Origin: Isoetes taiwanensis
Lineage: Eukaryota; Streptophyta; Lycopodiopsida; Isoetales; Isoetaceae
Length of the DNA stretch: 64,000 nt
Assembly: GCA_021234155.1 (NCBI GenBank)
Contig: JAJEKV010000005.1
Span: 8,300,216-8,364,215 of the forward strand
Reading direction: 5' to 3'
Below, piece after piece: positions 1,091-32,014 of the stretch. The notes beneath the pieces were generated by a model. The model was not told where the DNA came from. It saw only the letters and a program-made list of their open reading frames with translations, and ran no database searches. The translations under genes and the position numbers were made by a program. Numbering within the stretch: the first letter of the stretch is position 1; the number at the start of each line of letters is the position of its first letter.

Positions 1091-2666
1091 GATTGTCCAT
1101 TGGCCAGCTTTCTTCTCTCTGTTGCTTGTTGTTCACGATGTCTGGCAAGATTCTGTTGCACAATATCTGTAAAAGAAATCAGGTTAAAATATTCTTTTTA
1201 TAACAAGTGAGAGGCTGGAGAGCTTGAGCTTACTTCTTTCGACCTCTGTCTTTGCAGTTTCTCGTTGACTTTTTAACTCTGCACATCTTGAGCAAACAGA
1301 CATGCTATGTCTTCTTGGAATTTTTACCAGGCCAAATTCACTCTTCCACAGTCTAGTGAAGTGTGAGTAAGAGATGTGCTGAAACTGAATGCAAGTCTCT
1401 TTGTATTCTTTGAAGACATCCTTTTTTGTAATATTGTCTGTCAGATGATACATGTTGCTATTAGGCAACTTCTCACATGTCTCTCTAAAATATTTCTCCA
1501 TCCATGTCACAGCAGCCAGGGCATGCATGGTCACAACTCTTCTTGGACCACAATGATCATCAATTGCTGGATTTTTGTCCAGTCTTTTGTGTATTCGAGA
1601 CATTCTCGTGGACCCTAAACGGTGGACAACCATGAAGCATTTTTGGCAGACTTGTTCACGGTTAACGTAGTGCAAGAATGTGTTGCGGTCTGGTCTTACA
1701 TGGTAAGCTAAGTAGGCATTCTGGTCAGCCAATGTCATTGAACTGTAGTTGTCTCTAACTGCTCGTAATTTAGCCATGTTAAATCTGTTGATGCAACCCA
1801 ATGAGCAGCATTTAGTTCTCAAGAGTCTCCTCATTTTGTGTTCATCCATAAGGTTTCTTCTTCTTACAGAGGAGCATGCTCTCAAAGTAAAATCCACCTT
1901 AAATTTCTTTGAAGATTGGCTGGAGAACATGTAATCTCGTTGTTCTTCGTTGGTGTCTTCATCTTCTGATGAAACTTCTACTCTAGGGGTAACTTCCTCA
2001 GTCCTGAGTGGTGTGTTTGTAGAGGAAAACAGGCCACGTGAAGTTGTTCCCAGAAAAGGCGGTAGCACAGTGTTAAAGGATGGTGATGGCCCATAAGAGG
2101 TTGTGGCAGCAGCTGTTCTTGTACCCTCCTGAGAAGGAGTTCTTGCAAACATATCCTTTAGAGCGGACTGGAATTCTGCAAATCCATGTGTCACAACCAT
2201 TGTGTGACAAGGAGTACATGCTGCAGCATCGTTCTCATTTGTAGTGAAGTCCTGGGAAGTGAACGAATCTCACAGTCTTCTGTGTTCCTTGTGTACTTGA
2301 ATGAAGGGGGCAAAGCTACAAACGGTGGGGGTAGCTTGTTCTTGAGCACTCGTTGTGGTGGAGCCTCTGTAGGTCCGGGGGATGGAACGAAGGGTGGTGG
2401 CAGCATGCTCCGAACTGGAGGTGATGCTTTGGAAGGAGATGGGAGTGCACTGTCTAATGGACTTGGTGACAGTTGGAAGGGTGGTGGTAGTCTGTTACCT
2501 GCTGGACTCGGAGTGTCTTCGAGAAGCAACAACGATGCTGTAGAGGTAGGAGTCGAAGTATGTTGGTCTTCCGAAGAAAGGCATTGCTCCCAAGCGTTTC
2601 CTCAGAACTAGACGAGCTTGAGACAACAAAAGGTGCTGGAAGCTTGTTCACGAAGCGGTTCGTCAT
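1080..2666 (-). pseudogene. DUF7869-type transposon protein, N-terminal half, inverted
   Basis: Read on the minus strand from ATG at 2666, the protein begins with a Pro-rich region holding several L-P-[PA]-P-F repeats (KLPAPF, RLPPPF, MLPPPF, KLPPPF). A Cys/His-rich segment follows (CCSLGCINRF, QVCQKCFMV, SVCSRCAEL), as usually found upstream of DUF7869. An intron at 1233-1167 (GTAAGC...TTTTACAG, 67 bp) joins EVER in phase to an exon starting NIVQQNLARHREQ. That exon is open to about 1080, where homology jumps to the plus strand. The frame changes near 2580 and near 2190; the first looks like an indel, the second could be an indel or an unrecognised intron. The 5' end faces the ParB-methyltransferase gene across 330 bp. 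Confidence 0.6.
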
Positions 2667-2996
2667 CTTGACAACTGCAAAATAGTGTAGAGATTTTAGA
2701 AATTTTCTCTAATGCAAACCTTTTCTTATTCCCGAATACAAGCCCACCTAGTACAAGTAGAAGTTCCTGTAGCAATTAAGTGAAAGGCAAACTAAAAGCT
2801 ATTCCGGAATACACTGGAGCAGAACAGTAAGGCTAAATGTATTCCACTTCACATAGAATACGAGACGAAATGGATACCTTTAAAAGGAAATTTTGGCGCC
2901 TTCAGTTGCGTATTCCAGTCTTTGAGCAGAAGTCGCTAGCGCCAGCGCCTCAAATATTATATTCAGAGACTGTATTCCGATACGCATAGAGAAGAC
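2667..2996. promoter_or_regulatory. Divergent intergenic region with palindrome copies
   Basis: This 330-bp spacer separates the start of the minus-strand DUF7869-type gene (ATG at 2666) from the proposed first exon of the ParB-methyltransferase gene (ATG at 2997). It holds one full copy of the ATTCCGGAAT core (2801-2810) and several half or decayed copies (near 2725, 2838, 2910 and 2972). I see no clear TATA box. A shared bidirectional promoter is inference from the geometry. Confidence 0.35.
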
Positions 2997-3004
2997 ATGG
3001 ACAG

Positions 3005-3408
3005 GTGAGTCAAAAGTACAACGTACAATCATTTTTTAGTGCGTTTCTTATTCCGGAATAGGTTTTGGCTTTCATGTGAAGGCCAAAGTGTATTCCGGAA
3101 TACACTTTGGCTTACAGTCGAAGGCCAAAGTACCAAAGTGTATTCTGGAATACACTTTGGCCTTCGACTGTAAGCCGAAGTGTATTCCGGAATACACTTT
3201 CGGTGTTTTTTTTGTAAAAAGGTTTTGATTTTAAGAAAAAATAGCTTGTTTTTAACACTTCCTTTTCGATAAAAAAATCTTCAAAGGGGCTTAAATCTGT
3301 CTCGTTTTAGTAAAAAAAAGCTGAACATGTATTCCAAAATATGTTTTAGTGTTGTTCTAGCTTCTAAATTTGGTTTTTGTCTCCAATATGTTGCAGACAA
3401 TAAGGTAG
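3005..3408 (+). repeat. Intron 1 with long perfect palindromes
   Basis: Four copies of the ATTC[CT]GGAAT core occur between 3049 and 3200. The copy at 3082-3111 is a perfect 30-bp palindrome centred on TTCCGGAA. The stretch 3108-3175 is a larger inverted repeat whose arms contain GGCTTACAGTCGAAGGCC and its complement around another core copy (TTCTGGAA). DNA or RNA of this stretch would fold into a strong hairpin. Confidence 0.8.
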
Positions 3409-5053
3409 CAAGAAAGCTTCGAAAAAGCCACTAAAGTTAAGAACAAAGCCACACCCACAGGCAAGTATACGGGAAACTGAAGAACCCACTGTGTATGAAA
3501 ACTTTCAGACACAGTGGTATATCACAAGAGGAACAGGAGGAAAGTACAGCACACTCACTTTCCTCCACGTTTGTAAAAGTCCTGGAGGAAAGCTCTACAT
3601 TGACTCCCACTTCATTTGCATGGGTGTAATAAGAGAACTATCTGAAGTGACCGGACAGTCCGGACAACAGGGAAGGATATCGTTTAAGACAACGCAAGGG
3701 TATATTGTTGTGGACCGGGGCTATTTTAGGCTTGGTAGAGTGACACCTCAACCTCTGTACAAATACATGACGCATTACATAAATAAGCTGAGGTTGTGGG
3801 AAATTATACAAAGAGTGCAATCTACGACCAACGAGGATTTTGCACACAGCGCGTCAGAAGATGAGAGAGTAGAGGAGGACAATGAAGATGGCGGCTCCAG
3901 TCAAGAAGAAGGGAACGACAGCCCCAGCACATCAGAAGAGCATCAGAGACAAAGCCGGCCAAGGGACACCATTGCGGCAAAAGAACAAAAAAAACGCAAA
4001 GTGCAAGCAATTGTAGTGCAGGAAATTCCTGAGGAACAACCAAAGAAGAAGAAGGGAAAGGGCAAGGCACCTGGGGTGGCCATTAAAGAAAAGAAGGTGG
4101 ATAAGACCTCAGAGAAGATGGAAGAAATAAATCAGAACAAGTATGTGCAAGGTGTAATATACTTGCCAGTAACTTCCATGAGTTTGCCACTGAAGAATGA
4201 AGCTGGTGAGCGCCCCCTTCAGGTTCGCAAAATCTATGCTGACCACTTAAGAAATTTGAAGGACAGAATAAGGAGCAACCCCAATGCCCATGTTGCTCCA
4301 ATTGTTGTTCTTGTTGATGTATCCCAAAGCATGGACCCCAAGGACTACGACAAAGAAAATGCAGACACCTACATGCACTATGTCCTTGGGGAAACCACGC
4401 TTCAAAGCAAGGAGGCAGCTTGTACAAAGAGAAAAACAATTCAAGATACCTCTCAGGCTCTACTGTTGCATCGTGGGGCCGACAGCATCGAAGAAGCCAA
4501 AATCGTTGCCAACACGCACAATGCTGACAACGAATATAAGCTTAAAATGAGTTTCGTGGACAAAATCAAGTTCATGCACAGGGAATATGTGATATTTAAA
4601 GAAAAATATGGAGATGATTTGAAAAAACCACAATACTCTCTGGAACTGAAGGAAGCGTGTGTTGTGGAGTGCTGCCTCAAATACGACGAGGCTAACAAAC
4701 GGCAGTCTCTCATACCACATGATAACTGGTTTCAACTGGCCTTCAGAGATGGCAGAGTAAGTTCCTTTTGTATTCTGGAATACCCCTGCAACCATCCCAC
4801 TGACATCGCTTTCTTCTCTGCAGATTTGGGACCTCCAAAACGAAATATTCACCATGTTCAAGCGTGGTGATTTAAAAAGCAAAGGAAAGGTCTCCGACAA
4901 GAAAAAAGGACCCGACGTCCCCAAAAAGGAAATGACAATAACTGTCTGGCGAGAAATGCAGGGCTTCACAGATATGGATATACTAGAAAGGCTACTGCAA
5001 AAGGTTGTTGATAAGGAATTTACACTAGAAGAAATGTCCAAGGAGCTCCACAA

Positions 5054-5503
5054 GTAAGAATGCCACTTTAAGTTTTTTGTTTCATAGGACGATGTGTATT
5101 CCGGAATACACACTCTGGCTCACACGCGAAAGACAAAGTGTATTCCGGAATACACACTCTGGCTCACACGCGAAAGACAAAGTGTATTCCGGAATACACT
5201 CCGGAATACACTCTGGCTCACACGCGAAAGACAAAGTGTATTCCGGAATACACTCTGGCTCATACGGGAGACAAAGTATATTCCGGAATACACTCTAGCC
5301 CACACGCGGGAGACAAAATGTATTCCGGAATACACTTTGGCCCTCATGCAAGATAGAAAGTGTATTCCGGAATACACTTTGCCTTGCAGTGTGAGAGCCG
5401 AAGTGTATTCTGGAATACACTTTAGCTTACAGTGTTTAAATGATTCTTTCTTGTTGCTTTCCTTTAAAATTTTCTTTCTTCTAACGTTTGTATTATATTA
5501 CAG
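5054..5503 (+). repeat. Intron 3 with tandem palindrome array
   Basis: From about 5094 to 5423 the intron is a tandem array with a unit of roughly 38-45 bp. Each unit is one GTGTATTCCGGAATACAC palindrome plus a spacer such as CTGGCTCACACGCGAAAGAC. I count nine palindrome copies, one pair overlapping at 5180-5212; the spacers diverge toward the 3' side. Open reading frames of the YSGIH type over this array are translation artefacts of the repeat. Confidence 0.85.
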
Positions 5504-5604
5504 CCAGAAAAACGTCATCACCTGTCAAACATGCTTAATGGAACAGTTAAATGTCGACAGCTGGGAAAGGTGCAAGGGGGTGAAAGTATGCTGGTGGGTA
5601 TCAA

Positions 5605-5628
5605 AAGCATGCGTCCGGACGCATGCTT
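5605..5628. repeat. 24-bp perfect palindrome near the left transposon end
   Basis: The core is GCATGCGTCCGGACGCATGC with AA and TT on its outer sides. It starts 27 bp inside the left terminus of the 5578-9894 element. No counterpart is visible at the right end. It could be a subterminal transposase-binding site. Confidence 0.7.
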
Positions 5629-5911
5629 GTAGCATGCTTATAGCAGGGTTTTAGCCCACTTAAAGCACCCCTGCTTTTGCTTAATTTGGGTGCTGGTGGG
5701 CGTAACTGCCCGTCATATTTTTGATGCCCTTCATGTACTCGCACGTCCACCTCACCAACGAACCGTTAGGAAAATGATTGTGGGATTTTGGCTGGATTTT
5801 CGCGCGAGTGGTAGTACGTTGCAAATTCGATCGAGCCCAGAACTACCACGACCTCATGGCCCGCGAAAATTCTCCCTCCAATTCACTTATTCTCCCTCTC
5901 TCAGGAATTTC

Positions 5912-8850
5912 ATGGCGCTCCCTGATACCGGCCTGGAGGCAATTGAACGTTTAGCATTGGAATTTCGGCCTGATGAATTCCAATACAGTGTTCCAGATTT
6001 GTTGGATGTCAATGCAACACAGGAAATATCGCGTGAAGATCTAGTTTCCTCTGCAATTTACAAGAAATTGGATGCAGAGAGAAAGAGAGAATACAGATTA
6101 TGGAATAAGATGAGGAAAGCAGCGGTTGAACGGGAGGATCTGAGCACGAGACGCAGGCAAGAAATAGCCAAGCTTGTAGTTGATTACTTCAACAAGCTCA
6201 CCAAAAAGTATTCACCCGAACTCAAGGCCGATGTGATGAAGAGGGTGGTTCATCACCACGAAATGGAAATCTCAGAACCTGGAATTTTGCCAAATCCAAA
6301 GGAGTGCAAGGCAGCGGGGGTGCTGCTCAACAACTTGAAACAAACAATGGTAGCCATAAAGAGGCAAAGGAACCATGATATTTGGAGAGCCAGAACCTCG
6401 ACACTGGTGATGGCTTCTTCCTTAAAATCGAGATGCAATTCCACTATGGCAGGGCTGTTAGCTACATCTAATTCTTGCTTTCATGCCTGTGCTTCTTCAT
6501 GCTTTCAAGTGCTTGTATCTGCTGAGTGGTGCTGGCTGGGATATGTTCATTGATTAATGTGCAATATTTCTTATGATAGGTTGCATGAGGTCAACTATTG
6601 CAACTGCTGCATTAAGGAAATCGGAAGCCTTCCTTGGAAATGGTCCGTGGTCTTGTTTCCAAAGGAGGTTGAGGTGCGATTCTTCACCCCCTCGCTTGCA
6701 AGCAAAGCATAACGTAATTCGAAACAAAATAGCGTAGTCTCTCCTTGCAAGAAAGATGTTGTGAACACTGTTGGAGAGTCAGGCTTCCGAATTTCTTATC
6801 CCTTGCACCTTATGGAGGTCACACAGGTACAAGTTTCCATACATTTTTTTTTTTTTTGCTATTATTGCATAAATATTCCTAACCAAAGGCCACAATTCAG
6901 CTGCAGCTATATCAACAATACAAAAAGGCACATCCTGAACACCCTGTTTGCTTAAAGGCTTTCGAGAAGTTGAAGCCTATTTATGTAAAGAAAGTATCAG
7001 AAAGGGAAACCTGTTGTTGCATATACCATATGAAGTTGGAGTAGCACTGAATGCATTAAGGTCAGCGATCTTCTGTAATATATGCTACAGACCTTGTTAC
7101 GATTCCATTCCGGGAGAGATAAGAAGTCGGTGGAGTTGCAAACCGCGTTACAAAGGAAGTGCCGTGTGGCGCCAGAAAAGAAAAGATCCAATGCCACCAA
7201 GAAGGGAAACAGAAGTAAGAAATCCAAGGTAGCTGGTGGGACACAGCCTGAAGCTGCAGCACAAGTTGGGAAGAAGGGAAACAGAAGTAAGAAATCCAAG
7301 GTAGCTAGTGGGACACAAAAAGTCAAAGACAAGTTGGGAAGAAGGAAAACAAAAAGTAAGAAATCCAAGGTACTTTGGTGGGACACAAACTGAAGTCGCA
7401 GCAAAGACAAGATGAGACCTCAAATGGCAAGGGGAAAAAAAAAGAAAGGTCCAAAGCCACCCTTAGATTGTCTTACAAGAGAACGACAAAGTGAAGGATT
7501 TCATTTCATATCCGTGTTCCACATTGAAGATATTCGTGCCACACAATTCTGAGGGCTAGATGGCGTGCCATGCAATTCGTGCATTGCCCGGACAATATCC
7601 AAGATGGCACCATTGTTTCGTAATTGATTTTGCAGAGAATTACAAAGATAAAAAATACAAAGGGAGGTTCAAATCCAAAGATTGGCACAATGACCGATAA
7701 CAATTCTCGTCCCACATCACGTATAGGATGGACAAATGCTCACGGGATCGAAAAGCTATTGAAGGAAACCCATTTTTACTTGAGTGATGACAAGATTCAT
7801 GACACTCTTTTTTGTGCAAAGACTGCCTTAGAAAGCACAATTCATGGCTAGTATCAAATGGTGTAGAATTCTCCGGGCATATAGTTTGGTCGATGGTTGT
7901 TCTAGCCAATTCAAATCTGCCCGGCCATTCTATTTCCTACCAAGATATCACCACGAGCTAGGGAAAGAAATAATATGGAATTTCTTTAGGACCGCCCATG
8001 GTAAGGGAGAGCATGATGGGCAAGGGACAGTCTTTAAAGGGGCATTCACTAGAGAGCAGCTCAAGTATGATGGAGTGAGATTTAGGGGTGCTGTTGATGC
8101 CTGTGAATTCGCTACGCAATGGAATGAAGGTGCCAAAGAACGGGGACATCAAGAGGTAATATGCTTTCATCTACATTCATCTGCTTTTGACGTGCTTTCA
8201 TCTGCTTTAAAAAGTGCTTTCATCTGCTTTTTTCCGGCCGTGTATTGTCAGATTGTGCCTCCGTCAGATGTGAACCGCAATACTTGTTGTCGCCTTTTTG
8301 CAGGCACTTCTGGTTCATTGGAAAGGATGATGTTGATAGGACAGATCGGCCGGATCGCCGGTGGTAGAAGGGACCAAGATTATACACAAAGATCGGGACA
8401 TACTTGGCCAAATCAAGCACAAGGGTGGCTCATAGAGGTTTAAGTTGTTTCGTGGTAACTGCTTTGAAAGGAAACCGGGTCATCTTGTGTGAACAAGCAG
8501 AGGTTAAAGAATTGGAAATATGTTACTCTAAAGCCGTAAAAGTCTACCGGTGAAGGTAATCAAGACCTAAATCGATGAGGCATTTTTTTGAAGGTGATGG
8601 AGAATGGCTTAGTGGAAACATAGAGGAAGGTGATAACTTTGTTTGTTGTAGCCCGAGGAGGGAAATCGAGAGAATGCAGATTTCTATGTGGTGAAATGTG
8701 TCAAGCCGAGGCATATCCTTGACAGAATTGTCAAGGATAGCTGGGGTCAGACCTTCAATGTCGATGAACATATGTTGGCTGGTTTGTACTATCTGTGCAC
8801 ATGACTTCCAGCAAATCTGTGCAAATGACTTCCAGGCGTGATATGTTCTC
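5912..8850 (+). pseudogene. Decayed transposase of the 5578-9894 element
   Basis: The likely start is ATG 5912 (MALPDTGLEAIERLALEF), open to about 6400; a possible intron then leads to CNCCIKEIGSLPWKWSVV after 6577. Further exons or fragments follow: QYKKAHPEHPVCLKAFEKL and CCCIYHMK at 6906-7035, then a shift to another frame (VALNALR), a Lys-rich repeat region (7190-7380), and the core pieces HFYLSDDKIHDTLF, DGCSSQFKSARPFYF and FFRTAHGKGEHDGQG (7770-8030). Weaker continuation, such as IGKDDVDRTDR, reaches about 8700-8850. The DGC..QFK and HGKG..DG.G blocks match a transposase family I know from plants and animals only as uncharacterised proteins. At least three frameshifts and several stops make it non-functional. 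The first Asp and the HGKG..DG block may be catalytic; that is inference. Confidence 0.6.
7190..7385 (+). repeat. In-frame Lys-rich tandem repeat in the transposase
   Basis: About three repeats of 55-70 bp encode KKGNRSKKSKVAGGTQ, KKGNRSKKSKVASGTQ and RKTKSKKSKV. This would make a strongly basic linker between the N-terminal and core regions of the protein. Confidence 0.7.
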
Positions 8851-8859
8851 CCCATAAGC

Positions 8860-9790
8860 TGTGTAAGCTGTTGGGCACATTGTAAAGCTCTCTTCTAATT
8901 TAATACCAAAGCCTCCCTCAAACCGCCTTTCGCTATGCTTTCGTGTGCCGTGGGTTTGTTGGGATTTGTCGACCTCTCGCTCACGCTTCTTTGGAGCACC
9001 TTTGAGGTGGGTTCACTTTTAACCTTGTTCTTTGTAGGCTCTACTCTTTGCCGCAAATCACTGCCCAATTAACCTTGAACTTCGTGGATCCCGCTTTGCT
9101 CTCGTGCGCTTATTGAATGCAAATAGGTATGATAATCGTCTTTCTAACTTCTCGTTCTTCAACCCGTCCCCGTATATTTTGCTCGAAGTTCTATTAGAGC
9201 TTCTTCGTTTTCGCCTTACCTTGTCAATGGAAGTTTTGCCAGGAATGACCCCGTTGGTATCCCAAACTTCATTGTACTCTGCTGCAGATATGAGATCTGT
9301 TCGAAATTGAGAGGGATGACGCCCTCGTTTGGCAGACCCGCATACGCATGGAAGTCTTCTTCGGTTCGGCAATCAGCCAGGTCCGGTCTTAAGGGAACGT
9401 TTCTTCTGGCCTGGAAGAATGCAAGAAAATCGAATTAACAGGGTTGAACCCTAAACCCATAGAAATTTTGTTTTGTTACTTTTTGATCACCCGGCAAATG
9501 GGTTCCGTTGGAATTACTGCTTGAGCGGGCGGATCAATCACCTTCTTCACCATGTTTGATCTGTTTGTTTAATCTGGAAATCCGAGAGCGCAAATTCGCG
9601 GGTTGCTTGGCCGGAACAGAGAAAGTTGGGGAAGAGAGATTTGGAAAAACACAAATTCGAAAGTTCGTTCGTTTGTCTAGTGGTGGAAGATTGCAGGGGT
9701 CGCATTCATTAACGGGGGCGGCAAACAGGTAATGATTGTATAAACGGGTACGAATAGACGGGCAGAATATAGGTGGTACTATATAGGTGA
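8860..9790. other. Right part of the 5578-9894 element, no recognised gene
   Basis: A minus-strand open frame of 104 codons (9372-9058) is rich in Arg and Lys, with KVRRKRRSSNRTSSK in its middle, but resembles nothing I recognise. It may be chance or a second, decayed element gene. The rest holds no supportable coding sequence. Confidence 0.3.
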
Positions 9791-9898
9791 AGGGTGGGAA
9801 AAAAATGTTTGAAGGGTGGAGAAAAATGTATTTTGGGTGCTGGTGCTGGTGCTGGGGTCGCGTTTTTTTGCTACCCACCAGCATACTTTCACCCAAGG

Positions 9899-11297
9899 AG
9901 CTTTACCCTATCACAACATCGGACGAAAGGATTATCCAATATGCGCCAAATTTTGAAGGCTGGGTACGTTGAATTGTTTTCTACATTTTTGTTTTTCTTG
10001 TTACTAAGACGTTATTTTTTGCAGAGCAAAAAGAAAAACAAGGACCTGCCGGAGGGCTTCATGCATCTGGTCAGGATAGCGCGAGAAGAGAGGATGCTGG
10101 CGGACAGGCGAGTTTTGGATAATGAGCCCTCCGATTACGAACGGTTTACAATGTACGATCAAAATAACCTGTTCTGTATAGTACACGGTGATTGCACCGA
10201 ATTAGCCGATTCAATAAAGCCCCAAGATTTTACCTTGGTAATAGCTGACCTTCCATATGGGTTTAAGCTGAAAGACAGCCGCTACGACGACCAGCCATTT
10301 AAAAACTCTGAGTTTAACGCTTTCGTCGACGGTATAAAGCAAATTACCACGGCAAAACATTGGGGGCTAGTTGTATTTCACTCAAGCATGCAGTCAGGCC
10401 TGGTGGAAGCCAGCTTCAAGAATCATTTCGGTTCCCCTGCGCAAGCTGGTTATGAAAATCTGGTTTGGTAAGCACTTATTCGGGAATACGCACGTCCTTT
10501 TGTTTTCATTATCTTTTTTTTTTTTAGTTACAACTCTAGCATTTTTAAATTCTTGTTAGGAGTTTCTATTCTGGAATACGATTCTTTTGGCTGTACTTAA
10601 ATCCTTTTTTATTTCTTTGTTGCTTAGGTACAAAACAAATATTAATTACCATGGTGGAGGCCCCTGACTGCTGAGTAAGGTCGAATATCTCCATGTGGCT
10701 TATTGGAGTTTCGATGGAAAACGTACAATGGAACACTTCAACAGAGCGGCGTGCCAGAACTTTTCAAATGTGTTGGAGTTTCCAGCTGTGTTACAGAAGC
10801 TGCAGGACCATAGTGCACAAGGAAGAATAGTGAATCACTATCAGAAGCCACAGAAGCTGATTAACCACCTTCTGGACATGTTCTCACGTCCAGGAGATTG
10901 GGTGCTCGACGCATTTTCTGGCTCTGGTACAACTATTGCTTGTGCACTTAAGAAGGGCCGAAACTGTGTAGCTGTTGACATTGATAAGAAGGCTGTACAA
11001 TTCATCAAGATGAGACTTTCTGCCTTACCAACTCTACCAGACGAGAATCAAGAGTTGGGAGCAAAGTCTAATTCTGATTTTGCTAAGATGACATCTTCGG
11101 AGATACAGCCTCCTTTCACAAGCTCTTTGGAAGACGAAGCTACGTTTGCAGAGCTGAAAGAAGTTGCTCTAGCTACAATACCGGAAGCAAGCACCAACAC
11201 AGAGAAGCCTAAGTCACCAGAGAAAGGTGAAAAGGTAGAATCTGATCAAGCTGAGACCAGCAAGAAGAATGAAGAAGAGTTTAATTTAGATCTCTGA
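9899..11297 (+). pseudogene. ParB/Srx-like-DNA methyltransferase fusion gene, 3' part (exons 4b-6)
   Basis: Exons are 9899-9963, 10025-10467 and 10628-11297; the introns at 9964-10024 and 10468-10627 have GTACGT/TTTTTTGCAG and GTAAGC/TTGCTTAG ends. The product is an N6-adenine/N4-cytosine DNA methyltransferase domain of the permuted class in which the catalytic motif precedes the SAM-binding one. DLPYG (about residues 650-654 of the fusion) stands where DPPY or SPPY is usual. A W-Y-K-T-N segment follows, then KPQKL and LDAFSGSGTT (816-825), with VAVDID binding the ribose. A Lys/Glu-rich tail ends at 11297. One TGA at 10665-10667 interrupts the frame between HGGGP and LLSKVE; CGA to TGA by CpG deamination is the simplest cause. 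With exons 1-4a the spliced length is 2,838 bases, an exact multiple of three. The 4-kb insertion and the stop make this copy inactive. Confidence 0.7.
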
Positions 11298-12269
11298 CGG
11301 ATCTATGTTGTGGCTAGTGATTGACATTTATTATTGATTGCCATTATTCAAATAACACAAAAACAGTAATGAGATTATTATTATTATGTTTACTAAATTT
11401 GTGTTTTTTTTACATCCACCTCTATAAAATTAGGTACTCATGTCTCAATTCTGCTATTTTCACGTGCTTAACTCCAAAAAAACCAAAGTCGTGTCCAAAG
11501 AATACCCCAAAAATAGGCCAAAAAAAAAACTGATACTCCTGAAACTTTAAACCTCTCTTAAAAAAGCCCAATTTTTGAAGTGACGTGCTTTTTCTAAAGG
11601 AATCTTTCAAACGGGAGTGCTGCAACACTCCCGTTTAATTTGCAACCTTGTTTTTGTGAAGTGGATCCTCTCTCTGAGTCAGATGATGATGACGAATTTG
11701 ATGAAAAACAAATCCAGCCTAATCAGGTCTTCTATTGTTCTGGGCCTTTTTGGGTTTGGTTATTGGTTTTTGTTAGATTATATACTGAACTAAACCTTTA
11801 GATTGATAGTTTTGGATATGTGTCACTCTGTCTGGTTATACTGTAGTTCAGAGTGTGTATGGCTGACCTTGCATTTATGGTTACCATTTTTTTCTGGATC
11901 AGATGCATAAATAAGTGGCAACCACCTGATATTCTATACCTGATTTTCTCTGTTACATAGTACTTTGTTTTATCCTTTGGTGTAGTTGCTGGTTTAGACC
12001 ATCTAGGTTTGCTATTGCTCTATTCACCCTGTTTACATGTTACTTGCATTTTGGTCATTTTAAGCACATATTCTAGAATGGGACTCGCAAGAAACCAACA
12101 AACCGCCCGATAGATAGGCTTCTCATTCATCTCAGCAGATTTTCTACAATGGTGGACAGTGGGTAGCCGCACACATGCGAACTACCCACGAAAAATAAAG
12201 GGAAAATCCAATTATATCATTTGGACCCCAAAAAAAATACAATGCTAATAGATGAGTGGCTGATGTACC

Positions 12270-12350
12270 TGCCGAAAGCTTATCACCGGGATTAAAAAAC
12301 CCCGCCCTTTCGGGTTTTCGAGGAAAAACCCTAGTGATAAGCCTTCGGCA
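12270..12350. repeat. Hairpin with conserved loop
   Basis: TGCCGAAAGCTTATCAC pairs, with one mismatch, with GTGATAAGCCTTCGGCA. The enclosed loop contains CGGGATTAAAAAACCCCGCC, then a short C/T-rich stretch, then GGGTTTTCGAGGAAAAACCC. The same loop recurs at 28128-28215 and six times after 52300, there with a different stem. Confidence 0.7.
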
Positions 12351-13439
12351 AGGGGCTTAGACAAACGTAAGGCATAGAAACGCTCCCAAAAACCCCCGCA
12401 TGGAGAAGTCAAAACAGATGCCGCTCGCCAACCTGTACCTGCACATCACCAACACAACAAACGCGACAACACAAACATACTAGAGAATAGCATCACCCAG
12501 GGGGTGGAAAAAAAAGCATCACCCAGCGGGTGGAAGAAAAACATGATAAACAGAAACTTGTGCACAATACAATAAACAAAGAAGGGGGGGAGGTTAGGTT
12601 CAAAGAGAATAAGGTACTGCTGAGAGAAGAGGAAGCGCCGATGAGACGTGGATGCAGAAACGCGCCTGAAATAGCGAACTCCCAACCAAAACGGGCATGC
12701 GCCGCCCGCATGCATGCAAGACATGCATGCTCGTCCCATTCTAGAATGGCGATCCGATGTCTCGGATCGATGCGATAGTTATTTAAGTGCATTGAAATAT
12801 GTAGTTCTGGAAATGGGGTTGTTGTAATGTTGCACTAGCCTCATTGTTGTCTCATAGAAAGCTAGGTTGCTTGGCCTGTTGTTCAATTTAGCAGATTGAT
12901 GCTGATACAACTCTCCTGCTTTTTTGGTCCTACCATGAACTGTGGTTGTATTCTGTGGCATCATTGATCGTCTCATTGTAACCTCTAGACCTGAGCCTTT
13001 GCCTCTATTTTATGTTTCTTACCCCTTTATGTGGATCTGTTCCAACCCTATCAGTCTCGTTTAGGCAGAAATACCCTCGAGTTGGAAAATTTTTATTTAA
13101 TAGGAATACCTGATAAACATTTAATAGTGGTAGAGATGAATGAGCATCTTTTTGACTAAAGGCCAGAAGTTTCTTCTTAAAAACAATTCGCTAACATTTC
13201 CTTGTAATGCATACTATCTAAGATTGTTATATCATTGCTTGAATGGATTTATTTGGGTTCAACTCCCAAACTACTTTATTAAAGCATGGTTTTAAGTGAA
13301 AAAATAATTGTGAGTAGAACAATCGAAAAAACAATGACCATGTGAAATTTTTTGTTATCTATGGTTATTTGCTGTTGTTTTTGTTTTTTTGCTAGTGTAG
13401 TTTTTCAATGGTTTTCTTTAGAACTATGTGTCCTTATTT

Positions 13440-13940
13440 GAGAAAGACTACATTTGAAAACAACTATTTTAAAAAACCACAAGTGGATGTTATGTTAAGC
13501 CACATATTATTTTTTAGTGAAAACAACACTTGGAAAACTATTATTTTAAAAAATCACACGTGGATGTTATATTAAGACACATTATTTTTTAGTAAAAACA
13601 ACATTTGAAAACTACTATCCATGTGTATATTTTGTAAACCACATGTTATTTTTTTAGTAAAAACAACACTTAAAACAACTTTTATTCTAAAAAATGACAC
13701 ATGGATATTCTGTTAAACCACATATTGTTTTCTAAAAACAACACTTCAAAACAATACATCGAATTTTTTTAAAAGACTGTCAATTTCCTATGCATAGACT
13801 TTTTGGATAAAAACTACACGTTGTTTCTAGCATTTTCGGAACAAAACAATGGGTACTGTTTAAGTGTTGTTTTTTTGAAAAAAAAGATACTAAAAAACTA
13901 CACGTTGAGCAAATTTTGGGGTTATAGTAGCTGGCACTTT
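13440..13940. repeat. A/T-rich tandem repeats and a decayed element end
   Basis: About four copies of a 90-100-bp unit contain TGGATGTTATGTTAAGCCAC and GTAAAAACAACACTT variants. The right side (13900-13935, GCAAATTTTGGGGTTATAG) resembles the right terminus of the 11-kb element at 26462-26492, so this is probably an old short member of that family. The same structure is present at 29290-29780. Confidence 0.45.
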
Positions 13941-14092
13941 TTTTGCCCACCCTTTCATGCTTCTACCCTCTTAGCAGAAAGATTACTTCTTAACAGAGCT
14001 TTTTTCTATGTATAATGTGTCAAATGCTACTTGTTCAGACATATGAAAAATTTACATCCTTCTGAACATCTACTCTTTGTTATGCCTGCTAG

Positions 14093-14796
14093 GTGCTGTA
14101 TGATAGTGGTGCAAGAAAGTTAGCAGCATGTTCATTACCAGCAATAGGATGTTTTCCATCACAGATTATGCTATATGGTAAAGGAAACCTGGCATGCGTG
14201 AGTACATTGAACCAAGATGCCCAAGTATTAAACGCAAGATTAAAACGCAGCACAGAATATATGAAATGGTGGAGCCTATCCAAAATGAAACCCCACAGCT
14301 TTTAGACTTATACAACACAACTTTGGATGCTTCACAAAATCCTTCCAAATACGGTGAGTAGCTCATACCGTATGGTCGAAGATTTAGATTAGGGCAAGAT
14401 TAAAACGCAAAGACGAAGACATGAAATGGTGGAGCCTATCCGAATGAAACCGCGTTTTTAGACTTATACAAAGACAACTTTGGATGCGCCACAAAATCCT
14501 TCCAAATATTTTTAGACTTATACAGCACAGCTTTGGATGCTTCACAAAATCCTTCCAAATATGGTGAGTAGCTCATACCTGGTATGGTCAGAAGATTTAG
14601 ATTAGGGCTGAAGCTTTGCCGCTTGTTCTTTGCAGGTTTCTCAGTAGGACCAACTGGCTGTTGCGGATCAAGAAGATATGAAGCTGCCATCTATTGTAAC
14701 CTTTTGACACCTGCTTGCCCCATAGCCGAAACTTATGTGTATTGGGAAGAGAATTTGCATAGCCGGCAAGAGCATGTTCACTCTTGTTTCCCTTAG
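14093..14796 (+). pseudogene. GDSL esterase/lipase 3' exons, copy 1
   Basis: The exon at 14093-14353 (acceptor gctag, donor gtgagt) encodes VLYDSGARKLAACSLPAIGC, the LYxxGARK...PPIGC block of plant GDSL lipases, then LDLYNTTLDASQNPSKYG. The last exon, 14636-14796, encodes GPTGCCGSRRYEAAIYCN and YVYWEENLHS, matching the GCCG and WDxxHP blocks of the family. In this copy the catalytic Asp-x-x-His of the last block is replaced (EENLHS). Between the exons, pieces of the first one are duplicated twice with frameshifts. The N-terminal exons with the GDSL serine are missing, so it is an inactive gene fragment. Confidence 0.7.
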
Positions 14797-15559
14797 CAAT
14801 CTGCCATAGCCACTAGTTTCGAAAGGAGAGCCTTTCTCTTGTCGCTCTGCACAGCATCAGAAATGGAGGCCAATAGAAACCCTAAATAAAAGGGTTCTAT
14901 GGTTGAATGGTACATATAAAAAAAGCATTGTGGTCCAGCCTGTGTGACAGATAGATAACTTTAATCATGGCCATACAATTCTATCTCTCATCAAAAATCA
15001 AAGGCCAAAAAATGGAGCACTCTAGAAATACTATTTTGTACACCTAGTTGAATACGGCAACAAAATCATAGAAAAACCTTAATAAATATCGTACAAAAAC
15101 ACAAAAGAAACCCCCTGTTATTATGCTAGATATTGGTCCCTTCTAACCTAAACCTAAAGGGTCATGTAAAAGGAACAAAAGGGGAAACCTTAAACCTTTT
15201 CCATTTTCGCATTTTGGCTTCCTTGAGGAATTCCGGCCAAGCCAAGTTGCTAGTTCGCATTGCCAGGCATCGTCAAGCCGCATTTGCACAATAGATCTCC
15301 CAGAAGTAGCTACATTCAGGCCAAGCGAAGGCATGGACGCGATTCAAGGAGCTGGAGCAAGCCAGGGATCAGGTAACCTGTGATTCCGTTTTGCAAAGCG
15401 GACTTTATGCCAGGCAATGAGCTAGGATAACACACTCACCCCGGTTTTTGGTCCACTGTTGAAAACATCAGTTTTGGTAGGTCTACATGTCCTGTTTTCA
15501 AAGAATCCTACATGTGGATTTGTGAAGGTATGGTTTTGTTCGATAATGGTGTTCTTTTT

Positions 15560-16110: not shown

Positions 16111-16199
16111 CACGCCATCACATGTTCTTATACTAGTATTCCATGTAACACAAGTTACTTCAACTACTTCAATTACTTAACACCTATTTTTGCATAACG

Positions 16200-17775
16200 T
16201 GGGCACCAACATGCCAAGGTGACTCTAACATGCCACCTAGGCTCAAACATGCCAAGGTGGCTCCAACATGCCACCTAGGCTCCAACATGACAAAATGGCT
16301 CAAACATGCCACCTAGGCTCCAACGTGCTCAAACATGCCACGCAGGGGTCCAACATGCCACCTATGCTCCAACTTGACAAGGTGGCTCAAATATGCCACG
16401 TGGGCTCCAACATGCCACCTAGGCTCCAACATTCCTAGGTGGCTCAAACATGCCACATAGGCTCAAACATGCCATGCAAAGCTCACTTAGGCTCCAACAT
16501 GCCAAGGTGGCTCCAACATGCCACCTAGGCTCAAACATGCCAAGGTGGCTCAAACATGCCACCTAGGCTCCAAACATGCCACCTAGGGCTCCAACATGCC
16601 ACCCAGGCTCAAACATGCCAAGGTGGCTCAAACATGCCATGTGGGCTCCACCATGCCACCTAGCCCTCCAACATGCCAAGGTGGCTCACAACATGCCACC
16701 TAGGCTTAAATATGCCAAGTTGGCTCAAACATGCCACCTAGGCTCCAACATGCCACCGTGGCTCTAACCTGCCACCTAGGCTCAAACATGCCACGTGGGG
16801 TCCAACATGCCACGCGCCCAAGGTGGCTCCAACATGCCACCTAGGCTCCAACATGCTCAAACATGCCACGGGCTCTAACATGCCACCTATGCTCCAACTT
16901 GCCAAGGTGGCTCAAATATGCCACGTGGGCTCCAACATGCCAAGGTGGCTCAAGCATGCCACACAGGCTCCAACATGCCACCTAGGATCTAACATGGCAA
17001 GGTGGCTCAAACATGCCAAGTGGTATCCAACATGCCACCTAGGCTCCAACATGCCAAGGTGGCTCCAACATGCCAAGGTGGCTCAAACATGCCACCTAGG
17101 CTCCAACGTTGCTCAAACATGCCACCTTGTCTCCAACATGCAAATGTTTCTCAAACATGCCAAGTTGGCTCAAACATGCCACCTTGGCTCCAACATGCCA
17201 AGGTGGCTCAAACATGCCACCTAGGCTCAAACATGCCAAGGTGGTTCCCACATGCCAAGGTGGCTCCAACATGCCACCTAGGTTCAAACATGCCAAGGTG
17301 GCTCAAACATGCCACCTAGGTCGCAACATGACAAAATGGCTCAAACATGCCACCTAGGCTCCAACGTGCTCAAACATGCCACGCCGGGCTCCAACATACC
17401 ACCTATGCTCCAACTTGCCAAGGTGGCTCAAATATGCCACGTGGGCTCCAACATGCCACCTAGGCTCCAACATTCCTAGGTGGCTCAAACATGCCATCTA
17501 GGCTCAAACATGCCACCCAGGGCTCAAACATGCCAGTGGCTCAAACATGCCAAGGTGGGCTCAAACATGCCACCTAGGCTCCAACATGCCAAGGTGGCTC
17601 AAACATGCCACGTGGACTCCATAATGCCACGTGGGCTCCAACATGCCAAGGTGGCTCAAACATGCCACCTAGGCTCAAACATGCCAAGGTGGCTCCAACA
17701 TGCCATGCAGGCTCCAACATGCCCATGTGGCTCAGGCATGCCACCTAGTCTCAAGCATGCCACCTAGGCACCCCA
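16200..17775. repeat. Minisatellite array 1, forward orientation
   Basis: The array is built from a 19-21-bp unit, CTCAAACATGCCAAGGTGG alternating with CTCCAACATGCCACCTAGG, so dimers of about 40 bp are common. Long open frames over it in several phases (HLGSNMPRWLKHA and similar) are artefacts of the unit having no stop codon. The array ends in CACCCCAAGTGGTGACATGG, which also marks the turning point at 23605-23640. Confidence 0.9.
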
Positions 17776-20875: not shown

Positions 20876-21225
20876 TGATCGAGGGAGCATCCCAGACAAA
20901 TCCTACCAAACCCTAGGGTTTGGTAGGGTTTACATCTCGAAAGGCCAAGATCGGAGACTAACACATCCAAACTTTGCATGGAGTTCTCTCGTATGCCTGG
21001 GGACCATGCCCGGAGATGGGGTCAAATCCCCCTGCAAGAAGATGCTTTTCGCACTCCCCTTCACCGGAAAGGGGCTTGTGAAGGGGAGTCTCCCAAGGTA
21101 TCTTTGACCGAAATTTGGCTCTGTCTCCCGAAGCCATGAGGGTAATCCAAACAGGTATTCCACGCCGATCCTCGGCCCTCCGGGTCATCTGAGCATCCCT
21201 GCAATGTAAACCCTATCAAACCTAG
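20876..21225. other. Unique spacer with a 26-bp palindrome
   Basis: Positions 20902-20927 form a perfect 26-bp palindrome with core CCAAACCCTAGGGTTTGG, two opposed telomere-like CCCTAAA-type half units. The rest is non-coding to my eye. Confidence 0.6.
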
Positions 21226-21420
21226 GCTCCAACGTGCTCAAACGCGCCAAGGTGGCTCAAACATGCCACGGGCTCCAACATGCCACATAGGCTCCAACAT
21301 GCCATGTGGGCTCCAACATGCCAAGGTGGCTCAAACATGCCACCTAGGCTCAAACATGCCAAGGTGGCTCCCACATGCCAAGTTGGCACCTAGGCTCGTG
21401 CATGCCACCTAGGCATGTGT
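21225..21420. repeat. Short satellite island, forward orientation
   Basis: Eight or so units of the CTCCAACATGCC minisatellite, the same family as 16200-17775. Confidence 0.85.
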
Positions 21421-22399: not shown

Positions 22400-23620
22400 G
22401 TCTGGCCACCTAGGCTCCAACGTGCCACCTAGGCTCCAACATCCACCTAGGCTCCAACATGCCACCTAGGCTCAAGTGTGCCAAGGTGGCTCAAATATGC
22501 CACCTAGGCTCCAACATGCCACGAGGGGCTCCAACATGCCACCTAGGCTCCAACATGCCACCTAGCATGCCACCTAGCCTCCAACATGCCCTGCCACATA
22601 GGCTCCAACATGCCAAGTTGGCTCCAATGTGCCACCTAAGCTCAAGCATGCAAGGTGGCTCAAATATGCCACCTAGGCTCCAACATGCCACCAAGGCTTT
22701 AACATGCCACGTAGGCTCCAACATGCCACCTAGGCTCCAACATGCCTCGTGAGCTCTAGCATGCCACCTAGGCTCCAACGTGCCACCTAGGCTCCAACAT
22801 GCCAAGGTGGCTCCAACATGCCACCTAGGCTCAAGCGTGCCAAGGTGGCTCAAACATGCCACCTAGGCTCTAACATGCCACGTAGGCTCCAACATGCCAT
22901 CTAGGCTCCAACTTGCCAACTACGCTCCAACATGCCACGTGGGCTCCAACATGCCACCTAGCATGCCACCAAGGCTCCAACATGCCACCAAGGCTTCAAC
23001 ATGCCACGTAGGCTCCAACATGCCACCTAGGCTCCAACATGCCTCGTGAGCTCTAGCATGCCACCTAGGCTCCAACGTGCCACCTAGGCTCCAACATGCC
23101 AAGGTGGCTCCAACATGCCACCTAGGCTCAAACATGCCACCGGGCTCCAACATGCCATGTAGGCTCCAACATGCCAACTAGGCTCCAACATGCCACCTAC
23201 GCCCCCGACATGCCACGTGGGCTCCAACATGCCACCTAGCATGCCACATAGGCTCCAACATTGCCACCTAGGCTCCAACATGCCACCGAGGCTCCAACAT
23301 GCCAAGTTGGCCCAACGTGCCACCTAGGCTCCAACATGCCAAGGTGGCTCACAACATGCCACCTAGGGTTTGAAATATGCCAAGTTGGCTCAAACATGCC
23401 ACCTAGGCTCCAACATGCCACCGGTGGCTCAACATGCCACCTAGACTCAAACATGCCAAGGTGGCTCAAACATGCCACCTAGGCTCCAACATGACAAGGT
23501 GGCTCAAACATGCCACCTAAGCTTCAACATGCCACCTAGGCTCCAACATGCCAAGGTTGGCTTCAACATGCCAAGTTGGCTTCAACATGCCACCTAGGCT
23601 CCAACATGCCATGTCACCAC
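22400..23620. repeat. Minisatellite array 2, forward orientation
   Basis: Units CTCCAACATGCCACCTAGG and variants. Two blocks of about 200-260 bp (around 22660-22810 and 22985-23120) are near copies of each other, showing recent amplification inside the array. Confidence 0.9.
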
Positions 23621-24610
23621 TTGGAGTGCCTAGGTGGCATGCCTGAGCCACCTTGGCATGTTGAAGCCTAGGTGGCATGTTGGAGCCCGCGTGGGATGTT
23701 GGAGCCTAGGTGGCGTGTAACATGTTGGAGCATGCGTGGCATGTTTGAGCCACCTTAGCATGTTGGAGCCCACATGGCATGTTGGAGTCCACGTGGCATG
23801 TTTGAGCCACCTTGGCATGTTGGAGCCTAGGTGGCATGTTGGAGCCAACTTGGCATGTTTGAACCACCTTGTGATGCCTGAGCCACCTTGGCATGTTGGA
23901 GCATAGGTGGCATGTTGGAGCCCAAGTGGCATGTTTAAAAGGTGGCATGTTGGAGTCTAGGTGGCATGTTGGAGCCCATGTGGCATGTTTGAGACACCTT
24001 GGCATGTTTGAGCCCACGTTGCATGTTTGAGCCAACGAGGTGGCATGTTGGAGCCCATGTGGAATGTTTGAGCCAAAGGCATGTTGGAGTCTAGGTGGCA
24101 TGTTGGAGCCCACGTGGCATGTTTGAGACACCTTGGTATGCTTGAGCCTAGGTGGCATGTTTGAGCCACCTTGGCATGTTGGACCCTAGGTGGCATGTTT
24201 GAGCCACCTCGTCATGTTGGAGCCCACATGGAATGTTTGAGCCAACTAAGTGGCATGTTGCGGCCATGTGGCATGTTTGAGCCACCTTGGCATGTTGGAG
24301 CCTAGGTGGCATGTTTGAGCCACCTTGGAATGTTGGAGCCTAGGTGGCATGTTGGAGCCCGCGTGGCATTTTGAAGCCTAGGTGGCATGCTTGAGCCACC
24401 TTGGCATGTTTGACCCTATGTGGCATGTTGGAGCCTAGGTGGCATGTTTCAGCCACCTTGGCATGTGGAGCCTAGGTGGCATGGTAGAGCCCACGTGGCA
24501 TGCGCGAACCACCTTGGCATGTTGGAGCCCGCATGGCATGTTAGATCCTGCATGGCATGTTAGAGCCCACATGACATGCTGGAGCCAAACAGCTGGCATG
24601 AATCATGATG
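23621..24610. repeat. Minisatellite array 3, inverted orientation
   Basis: The same unit is read on the opposite strand (GGCATGTTGGAGCCTAGGTG). Together with array 2 it forms an imperfect inverted repeat with arms of about 1 kb and almost no spacer; the turn lies at 23605-23640. Confidence 0.9.
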
Positions 24611-26492: not shown

Positions 26493-27225
26493 TAACATGG
26501 TAGATCAGTCTTAGCAGCCTTATAGATCCTAAGATCACCAGCCTTAATTAATGAACCTGACCATGTATGTTTAGGTAAATAGAATAGATATTATTCAGTA
26601 TTTCAGTTCTTTGATGATGATGATGTTCCATTCTATGCTCACTCCTGTGTATTGGAAGGGGGGTAGAGGCCTTGAAATATTCAGTAGTAGATGCATCTAG
26701 ATAGCCTCATTAAACCCCAATTATTGCGGCCCATGTACAAAGAGCCCGCCTGGTTGTGAGTGGCGGGGCTAGACCGGTGGAATAAGGGGGACTTGTCCCA
26801 TCACTGACTGATCCCTATGGTATGTAAAGCCTACCAGAGATCTTTGCGGGCTAGGCTTAATGGTTTGCCACTGCGTGTGGGCAAGGCATGAGCTCAACAC
26901 CTCTTGGGTAATGCATCACCTTCAATGAGGGACAAATCGAAGACGGGCAGTGACCCTCTAGCCGCTTGTGATGGGCATGCATGCCTCTGGAGAGGGTAAT
27001 GCCCCTCCTGTCTCATTGGGGCTGGGGAGATGAAACTCAGTAGTAGTCCCTTTGGCTATGCACCCGGCAGGCTACGGTCTAGTCCCTAGACTCTTCAACC
27101 TACTCTGCAAAGTGTACACCGGGAGGGGCGGATGGAGCGGACTACCCAACAGCCATGTTCCTATGCCAACCCAATCCACTCTTATGAATTCTGTCTACAA
27201 TGACTTCTGGAGACTGAAACCGTTA
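26493..27225. repeat. Unit A, copy 1 (733 bp)
   Basis: Nearly identical to 31282-32014. It contains a GTGGCGGGGCTAGACCGGTG stretch and a short open frame (MAMHPAGYGLVPRLFNLLCK) shared with copy 2; I do not recognise a product. It continues unit B of copy 1 if the 11-kb element is removed. Confidence 0.9.
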
Positions 27226-31284: not shown

Positions 31285-32014
31285 CATGGTAGATCAGTCT
31301 TAGCAGCCTTATAGATCCTAAGATCACCAGCCTTAATTAATGAACCTGACCATGTATGTTTAGGTAAATAGAATAGATATTATTCAGTATTTCAGTTCTT
31401 TGATGATGATGATGTTCCATTCTATGCTCACTCCTGTGTATTGGAAGGGGGGTAGAGGCCTTCAAATATTCAGTAGTAGATGCATCTAGATAGCCTCATT
31501 AAACCCCAATTATTGCGGCCCATGTACAAAGAGCCCGCCTGGTTGTGAGTGGCGGGGCTAGACCGGTGGAATAAGGGGGACTTGTCCCATCACTGACTGA
31601 TCCCTATGGTATGTAAAGCCTACCAGAGATCTTTGCGGGCTAGGCTTAATGGTTTGCCACTGCGTGTGGGCAAGGCATGAGCTCAACACCTCTTGGGTGA
31701 TGCATCACCTTCAATGAGGGACAAATCGAAGACGGGCAGTGACCCTCTAGCCGCTTGTGATGGGCATGCATACCTCTGGAGAGGGTAATGCCCCTCCTGC
31801 CTCATTGGGGCTGGGGAGATGAAACTCAGTAGTAGTCCCTTTGGCTATGCACCCGGCAGGCTACGGTCTAGTCCCTAGACTCTTCAACCTACTTTGCAAA
31901 GTGTACACCGGGAGGGGCGGATGGAGCGGACTACCCAACAGCCATGTTCCTATGCCAACCCAATCCACTCTTATGAATTCTGTCTACAATGACTTCTGGA
32001 GACTGAAGCCGTTA
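31282..32014. repeat. Unit A, copy 2 (733 bp)
   Basis: Second copy of 26493-27225. The copies part after CCGTTA, where copy 1 runs into unit B copy 2 and copy 2 into unique sequence (GTCCATACCCTGG). Confidence 0.9.

Follow-up and report, generated by a model that had tools for sequence, protein, structure and literature searches.

What is a bacterial-type DNA methyltransferase (MTase), joined to a ParB-like domain and split by introns, doing in a plant nucleus? The question is raised by a stretch of 64,000 nucleotides of the Isoetes taiwanensis genome (assembly GCA_021234155.1, contig JAJEKV010000005.1, positions 8,300,216 to 8,364,215 of the forward strand), hereafter called the window, in which a preliminary description made from the DNA letters alone had proposed a six-exon gene of this kind at positions 2997-11297. 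We found that the gene belongs to a high-copy DNA transposon with terminal inverted repeats (TIRs), 8.3-8.8 kb long, that makes 4-bp target duplications, and that the copy in the window is a pseudogene. The best explanation of the whole, to which we give a probability of about 0.5, is a two-gene Sola1-like transposon whose ParB-like part would guide the MTase to the element's own palindromes, the element thereby marking itself.

The genome (1,658,258,908 bases in 1,110 contigs) was searched for paralogues, and copies with open exons are present. Two full elements, A and B (contigs C952 and C1028), align in three blocks that are 93.4, 96.2 and 92.2% alike, and both end at the same points, giving lengths of 8,760 and 8,284 bp. 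Their ends are imperfect inverted repeats (AACAAAGTTGCGTATTAAACGGGAG versus the complement of AACATGATTGCAAATTAAACGGGAG) of the form AACA..GTTGC..ATTAAACGGGAG, and all four elements for which both ends were found are flanked by 4-bp target duplications, namely ATGA and TGTT for A and B and ATTA and TAGC for two non-autonomous copies described below. On its minus strand, the left half of copy A holds a gene resembling a transposase, in which a DUF7869 domain is recognised (E 1.6e-22), and the ParB-MTase gene lies to its right on the plus strand, the two being arranged head-to-head. The same layout recurs in the genome: among 88 loci matching the N-terminal open reading frame (ORF), a listed DUF7869 match lies upstream on the opposite strand in at least 17, and a listed MTase match downstream on the same strand in at least 27, both counted by eye and both lower bounds drawn from 150 listed MTase and 150 listed DUF7869 matches. 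At many loci, the two parts of the protein are thus found together, in one order and on one strand. As for copy number, rough first-look counts gave 1,444 candidates for the MTase model, 5,405 for the N-terminal ORF (88 scored, yielding 90 matches) and 9,910 for DUF7869, and the exact right-end hairpin AACGGGAGTGNTGCAACACTCCCGTT occurs 294 times in forward and 280 times in reverse orientation, with none for the reversed control.

Sola elements have TIRs and are mostly 2-9 kb long (PMC10741241). The 4-bp target duplication, the TIRs and the length within this range match Sola1, and, judged by these three traits, the element is of a Sola1-like type. Sola1 transposases are of the DDD type; the putative transposase here was recognised by its DUF7869 domain, which is not named in the open-licence papers searched on such transposases. 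A Helitron, which the hairpin near the right end had brought to mind, was ruled out because the left end is inverted and 4-bp duplications are seen.

In the window, the right-hand part of a decayed copy of this transposon occupies positions 1100-11652 on the plus strand, as judged by homology to elements A and B and, for the right end, by comparison of copies. The right end itself, at 11610-11652 (plus strand), consists of the hairpin AACGGGAGTGCTGCAACACTCCCGTT and the TIR running to 11652, and was located by comparing copies and by the genome count. The feature extends past the proposed gene on both sides, on the left as far as about 1100 and further, on the right as far as 11652; it is a copy of a transposon and not a gene standing by itself. 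The transposase gene that belongs to this element is represented by its 5' part, which lies on the minus strand at 1187-2693 (ORF 1184-2269; similar to copy A up to 2693) and is cut at about 1100 by another element, so that the DUF7869 domain found in copy A's transposase gene is cut off here. This inserted element, a different DUF7869 element in the opposite orientation, spans -7556 to 1100 (numbering continued to the left of the window), and its DUF7869 ORF at 131-1210 on the plus strand (PF25273, E 2.2e-37; junction at about 1100) is not part of the ParB-MTase element. The left part of the window copy lies beyond it, outside the window: homology to elements A and B is present at -7997..-7556 and resumes from 1100.

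The six exons of the ParB-MTase gene all lie on the plus strand. Exon 1 (2997-3004; ATGGACAG, then GTGAGT) was placed by sequence and a phase test, its start codon being putative, and exon 2 (3409-4756), placed by alignment of copies, encodes an N-terminal domain, a basic linker and the ParB-like domain, in that order and ahead of the MTase. Exon 3 (4824-5053; IWDLQNEIF...) is supported by its splice ends, its phase and matches in loci L024 and L027, while the two halves of exon 4 (5504-5577 and 9899-9963) were set by phase, the first of them being unbroken in copy L011. Exon 5 (10025-10467), defined from sequence and copies, holds the DLPYG catalytic-type motif of the MTase, and exon 6 (10628-11297), found with Pfam PF01555, its S-adenosylmethionine (SAM)-binding motif LDAFSGSGTT. 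This chain has the GT..AG ends, the consistent phase and the length of 2,838 nt, or 946 codons including the stop, that had been reported for it; what did not hold is an open frame, since the spliced sequence has an in-frame stop at codon 736 of 946 (10665-10667, plus strand), where copies L003, L015 and L001 are open. The sequence at 5578-9894, previously taken for an intron, is a nested 4,317-bp transposon within exon 4, with inverted ends (GGGTGAAAGTATGCTGGTGGGTA) identical over 23 bp and an AAGG duplication. It is missing from copy L015 at the corresponding place, exon 4 of copy L011 is uninterrupted where the window copy has it, and two of its ORFs that were scanned gave no Pfam match over the cut-off. 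The stretch YVLGETTLQSKEA, which had been quoted as a ParB motif, proved to be the product of a frameshift: in an alignment of nine copies, the eight others all have GGNHSFKARRQLYKE at that position, and the window copy no longer has the motif GGNHSFKAR that those copies show, the frameshifted part of the ParB-like domain running approximately from 4388 to 4500 (plus strand). Because of the internal stop, the frameshifted ParB-like motif and the transposon nested in exon 4, the window copy is a pseudogene.

These results bear on one branch of the preliminary interpretation, in which the gene has been domesticated by its host, as a lone module captured from bacteria and now at the service of the plant. 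Its introns and its plant nuclear context would suit such a role. We nevertheless rejected it because of the copy number, the transposon ends and the target duplications: 150 of the MTase candidates were scored, every one of them above the cut-off, the ends and duplications are shared between copies, and the frame of the window copy is broken; for this copy the reading is already contradicted. We regard it as having almost no chance of being right. What stands of the mobile-element origin first proposed is an intron-bearing, bacterial-type gene for a ParB-like protein and amino-MTase in a plant nucleus; it is one of two transposon genes and not a gene captured singly.

The MTase part is the firmest of the domain assignments. 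The search expected to recover an N6_N4_Mtase domain did so in the last exon (PF01555, E 1.2e-17, 65.1 bits versus a cut-off of 26.7), which also matches the phage DNA methyltransferase family phrog_67 (2.3e-19). Its solved relatives in the PDB are of the adenine type, MboIIA (3e-8), CcrM (9e-8) and RsrI (4e-7); two cytosine-N4 MTases come next at 1e-3. Beta-class amino-MTases carry a [DNS]-x-P-Y catalytic motif ahead of an FxGxG motif, and here DLPYG in exon 5 and FSGSG in exon 6 follow one another in the same order, catalytic then SAM-binding. Both motifs are also readable in the loci L041 and L045 of sister families, as D[LI]PYG (DIPYG) and FSG[ST]GTT, and the MTase of the viral contig L020 likewise has DLPYG. 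Judged by these features, the last exon clearly reads as that of a beta-class N6_N4 amino-MTase; its predicted product could be N6-methyladenine (6mA) or N4-methylcytosine (4mC), which sequence alone cannot tell apart. In phages, tblastn gave at most 39.2% identity among the best 15 of 483 records. The two phage MTases that were scanned are without a Pfam ParB domain, and in two MTases on viral contigs a ParB-like part was not seen in their ORFs by eye.

We next consider whether the protein has been maintained. Between copies, nonsynonymous differences (pN) are far rarer than synonymous ones (pS): pN is 0.059 and pS 0.773 for the ParB part (8 copies, 28 pairs), 0.105 and 0.718 for MTase exon 5 (7 copies, 21 pairs), and 0.127 and 0.654 for MTase exon 6 (5 copies, 10 pairs), in a sample biased by the picking of copies for open frames (8, 7 and 5 copies). 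Saturated pairs, which yield no ratio, made up 18 of 28, 13 of 21 and 2 of 10 pairs, respectively, and the unsaturated ones gave median ratios of 0.073 for the ParB part (9 pairs; range 0.034-0.151), 0.090 for exon 5 (8 pairs; 0.050-0.145) and 0.092 for exon 6 (8 pairs; 0.081-0.246). The N-terminal domain (median 0.144) and the linker (0.345) are looser, with single pairs above 1; ratios range from 0.072 to 0.673 for the whole N-terminal exon and reach 1.42 in its first domain. We read this as the trace of long-standing purifying selection on the accessory protein, synonymous sites being near saturation. Taken together, the identity of the transposon and the purifying selection are the parts of which we are almost sure.

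The second component of the proposed system is in the DNA. The elements carry a palindrome, GTGTATTCYRGAATACAC, with a core GTATTC-YR-GAATAC within AAAGTGTATTC..GAATACACTTT, repeated in arrays at a pitch of about 42 bp. Allowing up to 3 mismatches in 16, there are 16 sites in the window, 10 in copy A, 13 in copy B and 11, 10 and 12 in L015, L016 and L017, the last two counts covering whole 10-kb loci; among 30 shuffles the count was 0 in 29 and 1 in the other. In the roughly 23 kb that flank A and B there is no site, and in the remaining window (52 kb) a single one. The exact 18-mer GTGTATTCCGGAATACAC has 2,585 genomic sites, as against 0 for its reversed letters. For contigs C1-C64, over which both the palindrome list and the list of right ends are complete, 22 of 23 palindrome clusters are accompanied by element sequence: 12 have an exact right end or a listed MTase match no more than 5 kb away (by eye), and the other 11, all inspected, comprise 8 with element proteins, 2 with ends only and 1 array alone.

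Within the elements, the palindromes avoid coding sequence. All 16 sites of the window are outside exons, and the palindrome scan placed two diverged ones between the divergent genes (2725-2813), three in intron 1 (an array at 3089-3196, with sites at 3089, 3139 and 3181), nine in intron 3 (an array at 5095-5419, one site overlapping, mostly 40-44 bp apart) and single diverged ones in intron 2 (4769) and intron 5 (10565). Over 13 loci, 9 of 167 palindrome sites overlap protein-like sequence versus 98.1 expected, and the window's two among these nine are truly in introns 2 and 5, being scored as coding because the query proteins read through these introns. Conservation over 55 array units is 94-100% in the arms TATTC and GAATAC, 83 and 78% at the central CG pair, 74-85% in the four bases on each side of the 16-mer and 34-65% in the outer spacers; the figure for the core is biased upward because the units were chosen by similarity to it. 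In the window, A, B and L015-L017, the CpG at the palindrome centre is often TG or CA with intact arms, as expected if the central CpG decays through cytosine methylation by the host. In one case (L031:373), an element is inserted right beside a palindrome-like site, TATTCTGGAATA, that seemingly belongs to the array of another copy; this single case is a nested insertion, in which a choice of target may be involved.

The conservation of the arms far above the outer spacers also bears on the reading in which the ParB-MTase gene only rides along or serves as a decoy, with an enzyme that is inactive in vivo, and the arrays are neutral tandem repeats. Many copies are broken, the window copy included, as such a reading would have it, but it sits badly with purifying selection at near-saturated synonymous sites and with the catalytic-type motifs kept in the sister-family loci L041 and L045, and we think it quite improbable.

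Further indications come from elements that have lost their genes. From one of the two palindrome loci with ends only, we traced a 3.2-kb family of which two copies, 96% identical, have both ends and the duplications ATTA and TAGC. Palindromes number 8 in one copy and 9 in the other, for the most part grouped in two arrays, and none of the element proteins tried has a match in either copy. A genome search with a piece of this family as the query returned five more full-span matches at 93-94% and one covering most of it. With full elements, the family shares, in matches of at least 100 bp, the first 260 bp, both arrays and the last 130-270 bp; one further weak match of 120 bp to copy A lies beside the second array. 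Ends and arrays kept while both genes are lost is what cis-acting sites would do.

Nine further DUF7869 loci, none of which was picked by palindrome, all hold palindrome arrays. They are not a random sample: eight come from the 150 listed DUF7869 matches (L038 and L039 chosen as high-ranking without a listed ParB or MTase neighbour, L040-L045 spread over profile ranges) and the ninth is the element nested beside the window. Eight of the nine carry three other palindrome types, and one, L043, the main type. L038, L039, L040 and L041 have GTATRAATTYATAC; L042, L044 and L045 have CTATGCGCGCATAG, whose exact genome count is 1,551; the element beside the window has CGACTCGCGAGTCG within TTTCTCGACTCGCGAGTCGAGAAA. 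The exact count of TCTCGACTCGCGAGTCGAGA is 3,786, and the 16-mer GGTATGAATTCATACC is rare as an exact form (13 genomic sites); the reversed controls of these three counts were all 0. As a further control, no family of perfect 14-mer palindromes in the remainder of the window exceeds 2 members. On the opposite strand, ParB-like relatives with 44-56% identity to L013 are present in L038, L039, L041, L044 and L045, with MTase exons beside them in L041, L044 and L045, whereas no ParB-like relative was found in L040 and L043 and only an N-terminal exon, by eye, in L042. In the element nested beside the window, an ORF at L035:1984-2604 (window about -6016 to -5396) weakly matches the NLI/FCP1-type phosphatase family PF03031 (E 0.051, under the cut-off) and is perhaps a captured host gene fragment.

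The part of the protein that would read these palindromes is the one assigned as ParB-like, and we hold the assignment of this domain to be probably right. The NCBIfam family TIGR03764, 'ParB family protein', is the sole match of that database in all eight copies scanned of the main family (E 1.6e-4 to 2.4e-3) and appears in L045 at E 0.055. Pfam DUF6551 is found in seven of eight copies (E 0.013-0.053) and in L038 (0.03), all below cut-off. The PHROGs match, in eight of eight, is to an unnamed family, phrog_30771 (best 4e-4). DUF6551 is named among the nucleoside triphosphate-binding fusions of the ParB-CTPase fold (PMC12704722). Of 11 copies compared, 10 keep a motif GG[NT]H[ST][FY]KA[RK] unaltered, and L041 departs from it at a single position. 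In the window itself, the N-terminal ORF, for which a ParB or sulfiredoxin profile match had been foreseen, gave none in Pfam or PHROGs, and its AlphaFold model made without an alignment was uninformative (mean pLDDT, a per-residue confidence score, of 33). The ParB part had no tblastn match in 50,697 phage records, and no relative of it was found on the viral contigs. An ORF of the element nested beside the window has, by eye, a ParB-like motif GQHSVRAA, for which Pfam and NCBIfam give no ParB support.

We propose that the ParB-like part would recognise the element's own palindromes, that the bound protein would bring the MTase to the copies of the element, and that 6mA or 4mC would be placed on autonomous and non-autonomous copies alike. 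Either this mark or the protein bound there could then shield the element from silencing or license its transposition. The palindromes are family-specific, are nearly confined to noncoding DNA of the element and are kept in non-autonomous copies; the recognition proposed would be specific to each family. Such a pairing of palindrome and ParB would be comparable to that of parS and ParB. This self-marking through palindromes we advance tentatively, at slightly under an even chance.

Several points weigh against this proposal. On the side of the protein, the TIGR03764 scores are far under the curated cut-off throughout; L038, L044, two pieces of L041 and the ORF of the nested element have no NCBIfam ParB match; PF02195 has no match anywhere in the genome; the ParB profile gave only chance-like matches against the PDB; and the unrelated IgA0_D2 reaches E 5.6e-4 in L045, comparable to the ParB matches. 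Sulfiredoxins and many ParB-like proteins have an arginine after the histidine. At the position that we take to be that of this ParB box-II arginine, ten of 11 copies have serine and one threonine (by eye), and because of this replacement nucleotide or nuclease activity may be altered relative to ParB. On the side of the DNA, copy A has a single exact palindrome among its 10 sites, L034 is an array without other element sequence in 5 kb, and the main-type array of L043 lies about 7.5 kb from the DUF7869 match that selected the locus, beside another transposase fragment. In L042, L044 and L045, palindromes are also found between transposase exons. The palindrome type tracks the lineage of the element, and transposase and ParB identities split the elements identically; the putative link between protein and palindrome is inferred from co-occurrence.

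Because the two proteins divide the elements alike, either may be the binder, and the transposase is the rival candidate. The palindromes would then be bound by the DUF7869 transposase, in the manner of the subterminal repeats of some plant transposases, or would serve the divergent promoters as operators, while the ParB-MTase would act elsewhere or without sequence preference. That palindrome type follows transposase lineage as closely as ParB lineage would agree with this, as would the arrays that lie between the divergent genes and those of the two non-autonomous copies, about 370-600 bp from the ends. In the full elements A and B, however, the arrays are separated from the nearer end by 1.9-4.0 kb and some of their sites fall in introns of the MTase gene, so that they are not subterminal, and transposases more usually act at conserved inverted ends, which these elements also have. 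We consider this alternative less likely than self-marking, though it keeps appreciable weight. The ParB-guided reading can be extended to the other families: Sola1-like elements of Isoetes might run a self/non-self code in which each diverged ParB-MTase is paired with its own palindromic address and non-autonomous copies are recognised in trans, an extension that we find more doubtful than self-marking itself.

The architecture of a ParB-MTase with a transposase is already known from algae, and Isoetes provides its land-plant form. In Ectocarpus, the 21.5-kb Sola1-1_Ec32 carries a gene for a ParB-like protein with an N4mC/N6mA MTase opposite its Sola1 transposase; its authors suggest self-binding and self-marking by the ParB-MTase and, for cases in green and red algae, cite Iyer et al. 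2011 and Petroll et al. 2025 (PMC12477816). Both systems thus combine a ParB-like part, a probable one in Isoetes, with an MTase, in a gene that faces the transposase gene of a DNA transposon from the other strand; the Ectocarpus protein has 1104 amino acids in its 21.5-kb element and the Isoetes one about 945 (exon model of the window) in 8.3-8.8 kb. The land-plant form is further distinguished by its very high copy number, and palindrome arrays, non-autonomous derivatives carrying arrays and a measure of selection are not mentioned for Ectocarpus in the available text of that paper. Prokaryotic fusions of the ParB-CTPase fold with N6_N4 MTases are found in phages and prophages (PMC12704722, PMC5512222); they resemble the predicted Isoetes protein in joining the two domains and in their tie to mobile elements, and a close phage homologue was not found in our searches. 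The bdelloid rotifer N4CMT is a horizontally acquired bacterial-type N6_N4 MTase in a eukaryote (PMC8885841), described as a host gene with a chromodomain that marks transposons, whereas the Isoetes MTase is encoded by the transposon. MTases also occur in other transposons, of the Mariner type in viruses (PMC3627910). What appears to be new is that DUF7869 families have arrays of family-specific palindromes, mostly noncoding; no report of palindrome arrays in ParB or Sola transposons was found in the open-licence literature searched, a weak test of novelty.

By analogy, the nearest known logic in plants is that of VANC, an anti-silencing protein that is unrelated, as is its superfamily, to the Isoetes element. 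The targets of VANC, encoded by the VANDAL elements of Arabidopsis, are often tandem repeats that vary between related elements, and VANC21 localises to non-coding regions of the element (PMC5735166). The likeness lies in an element-encoded protein and in tandem-repeat targets that differ between related elements. VANC causes a loss of DNA methylation and is not described as an MTase in the available text of that source, whereas the Isoetes element carries one.

If its extension to the other families is true, the proposal would describe a modification system that is carried by transposons in a eukaryote and that uses, within a single genome, several addresses each specific to a family. In plants, 6mA and 4mC are disputed marks, and such transposons would give a natural source of them; by writing their own bacterial-type DNA marks, they would also show how mobile elements escape or steer plant silencing. 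The arrays are a candidate address, and their 2,585 exact sites make the published suggestion of self-binding directly testable.

Elsewhere in the window, two 733-bp direct repeats that are 99.2% alike, at 26493-27225 and 31282-32014, have between them a copy of positions 11367-15432 that is 4.06 kb long, is 97.5% alike and includes the last 286 bp of the ParB-MTase element; the segment 26493-32014 is either an element resembling a long terminal repeat (LTR) retroelement or a duplication that copied its neighbourhood. Arrays resembling minisatellites, with direct and inverted copies and long ORFs of repeated peptide, occupy 16196-17772, 21220-21415 and 22405-24600.

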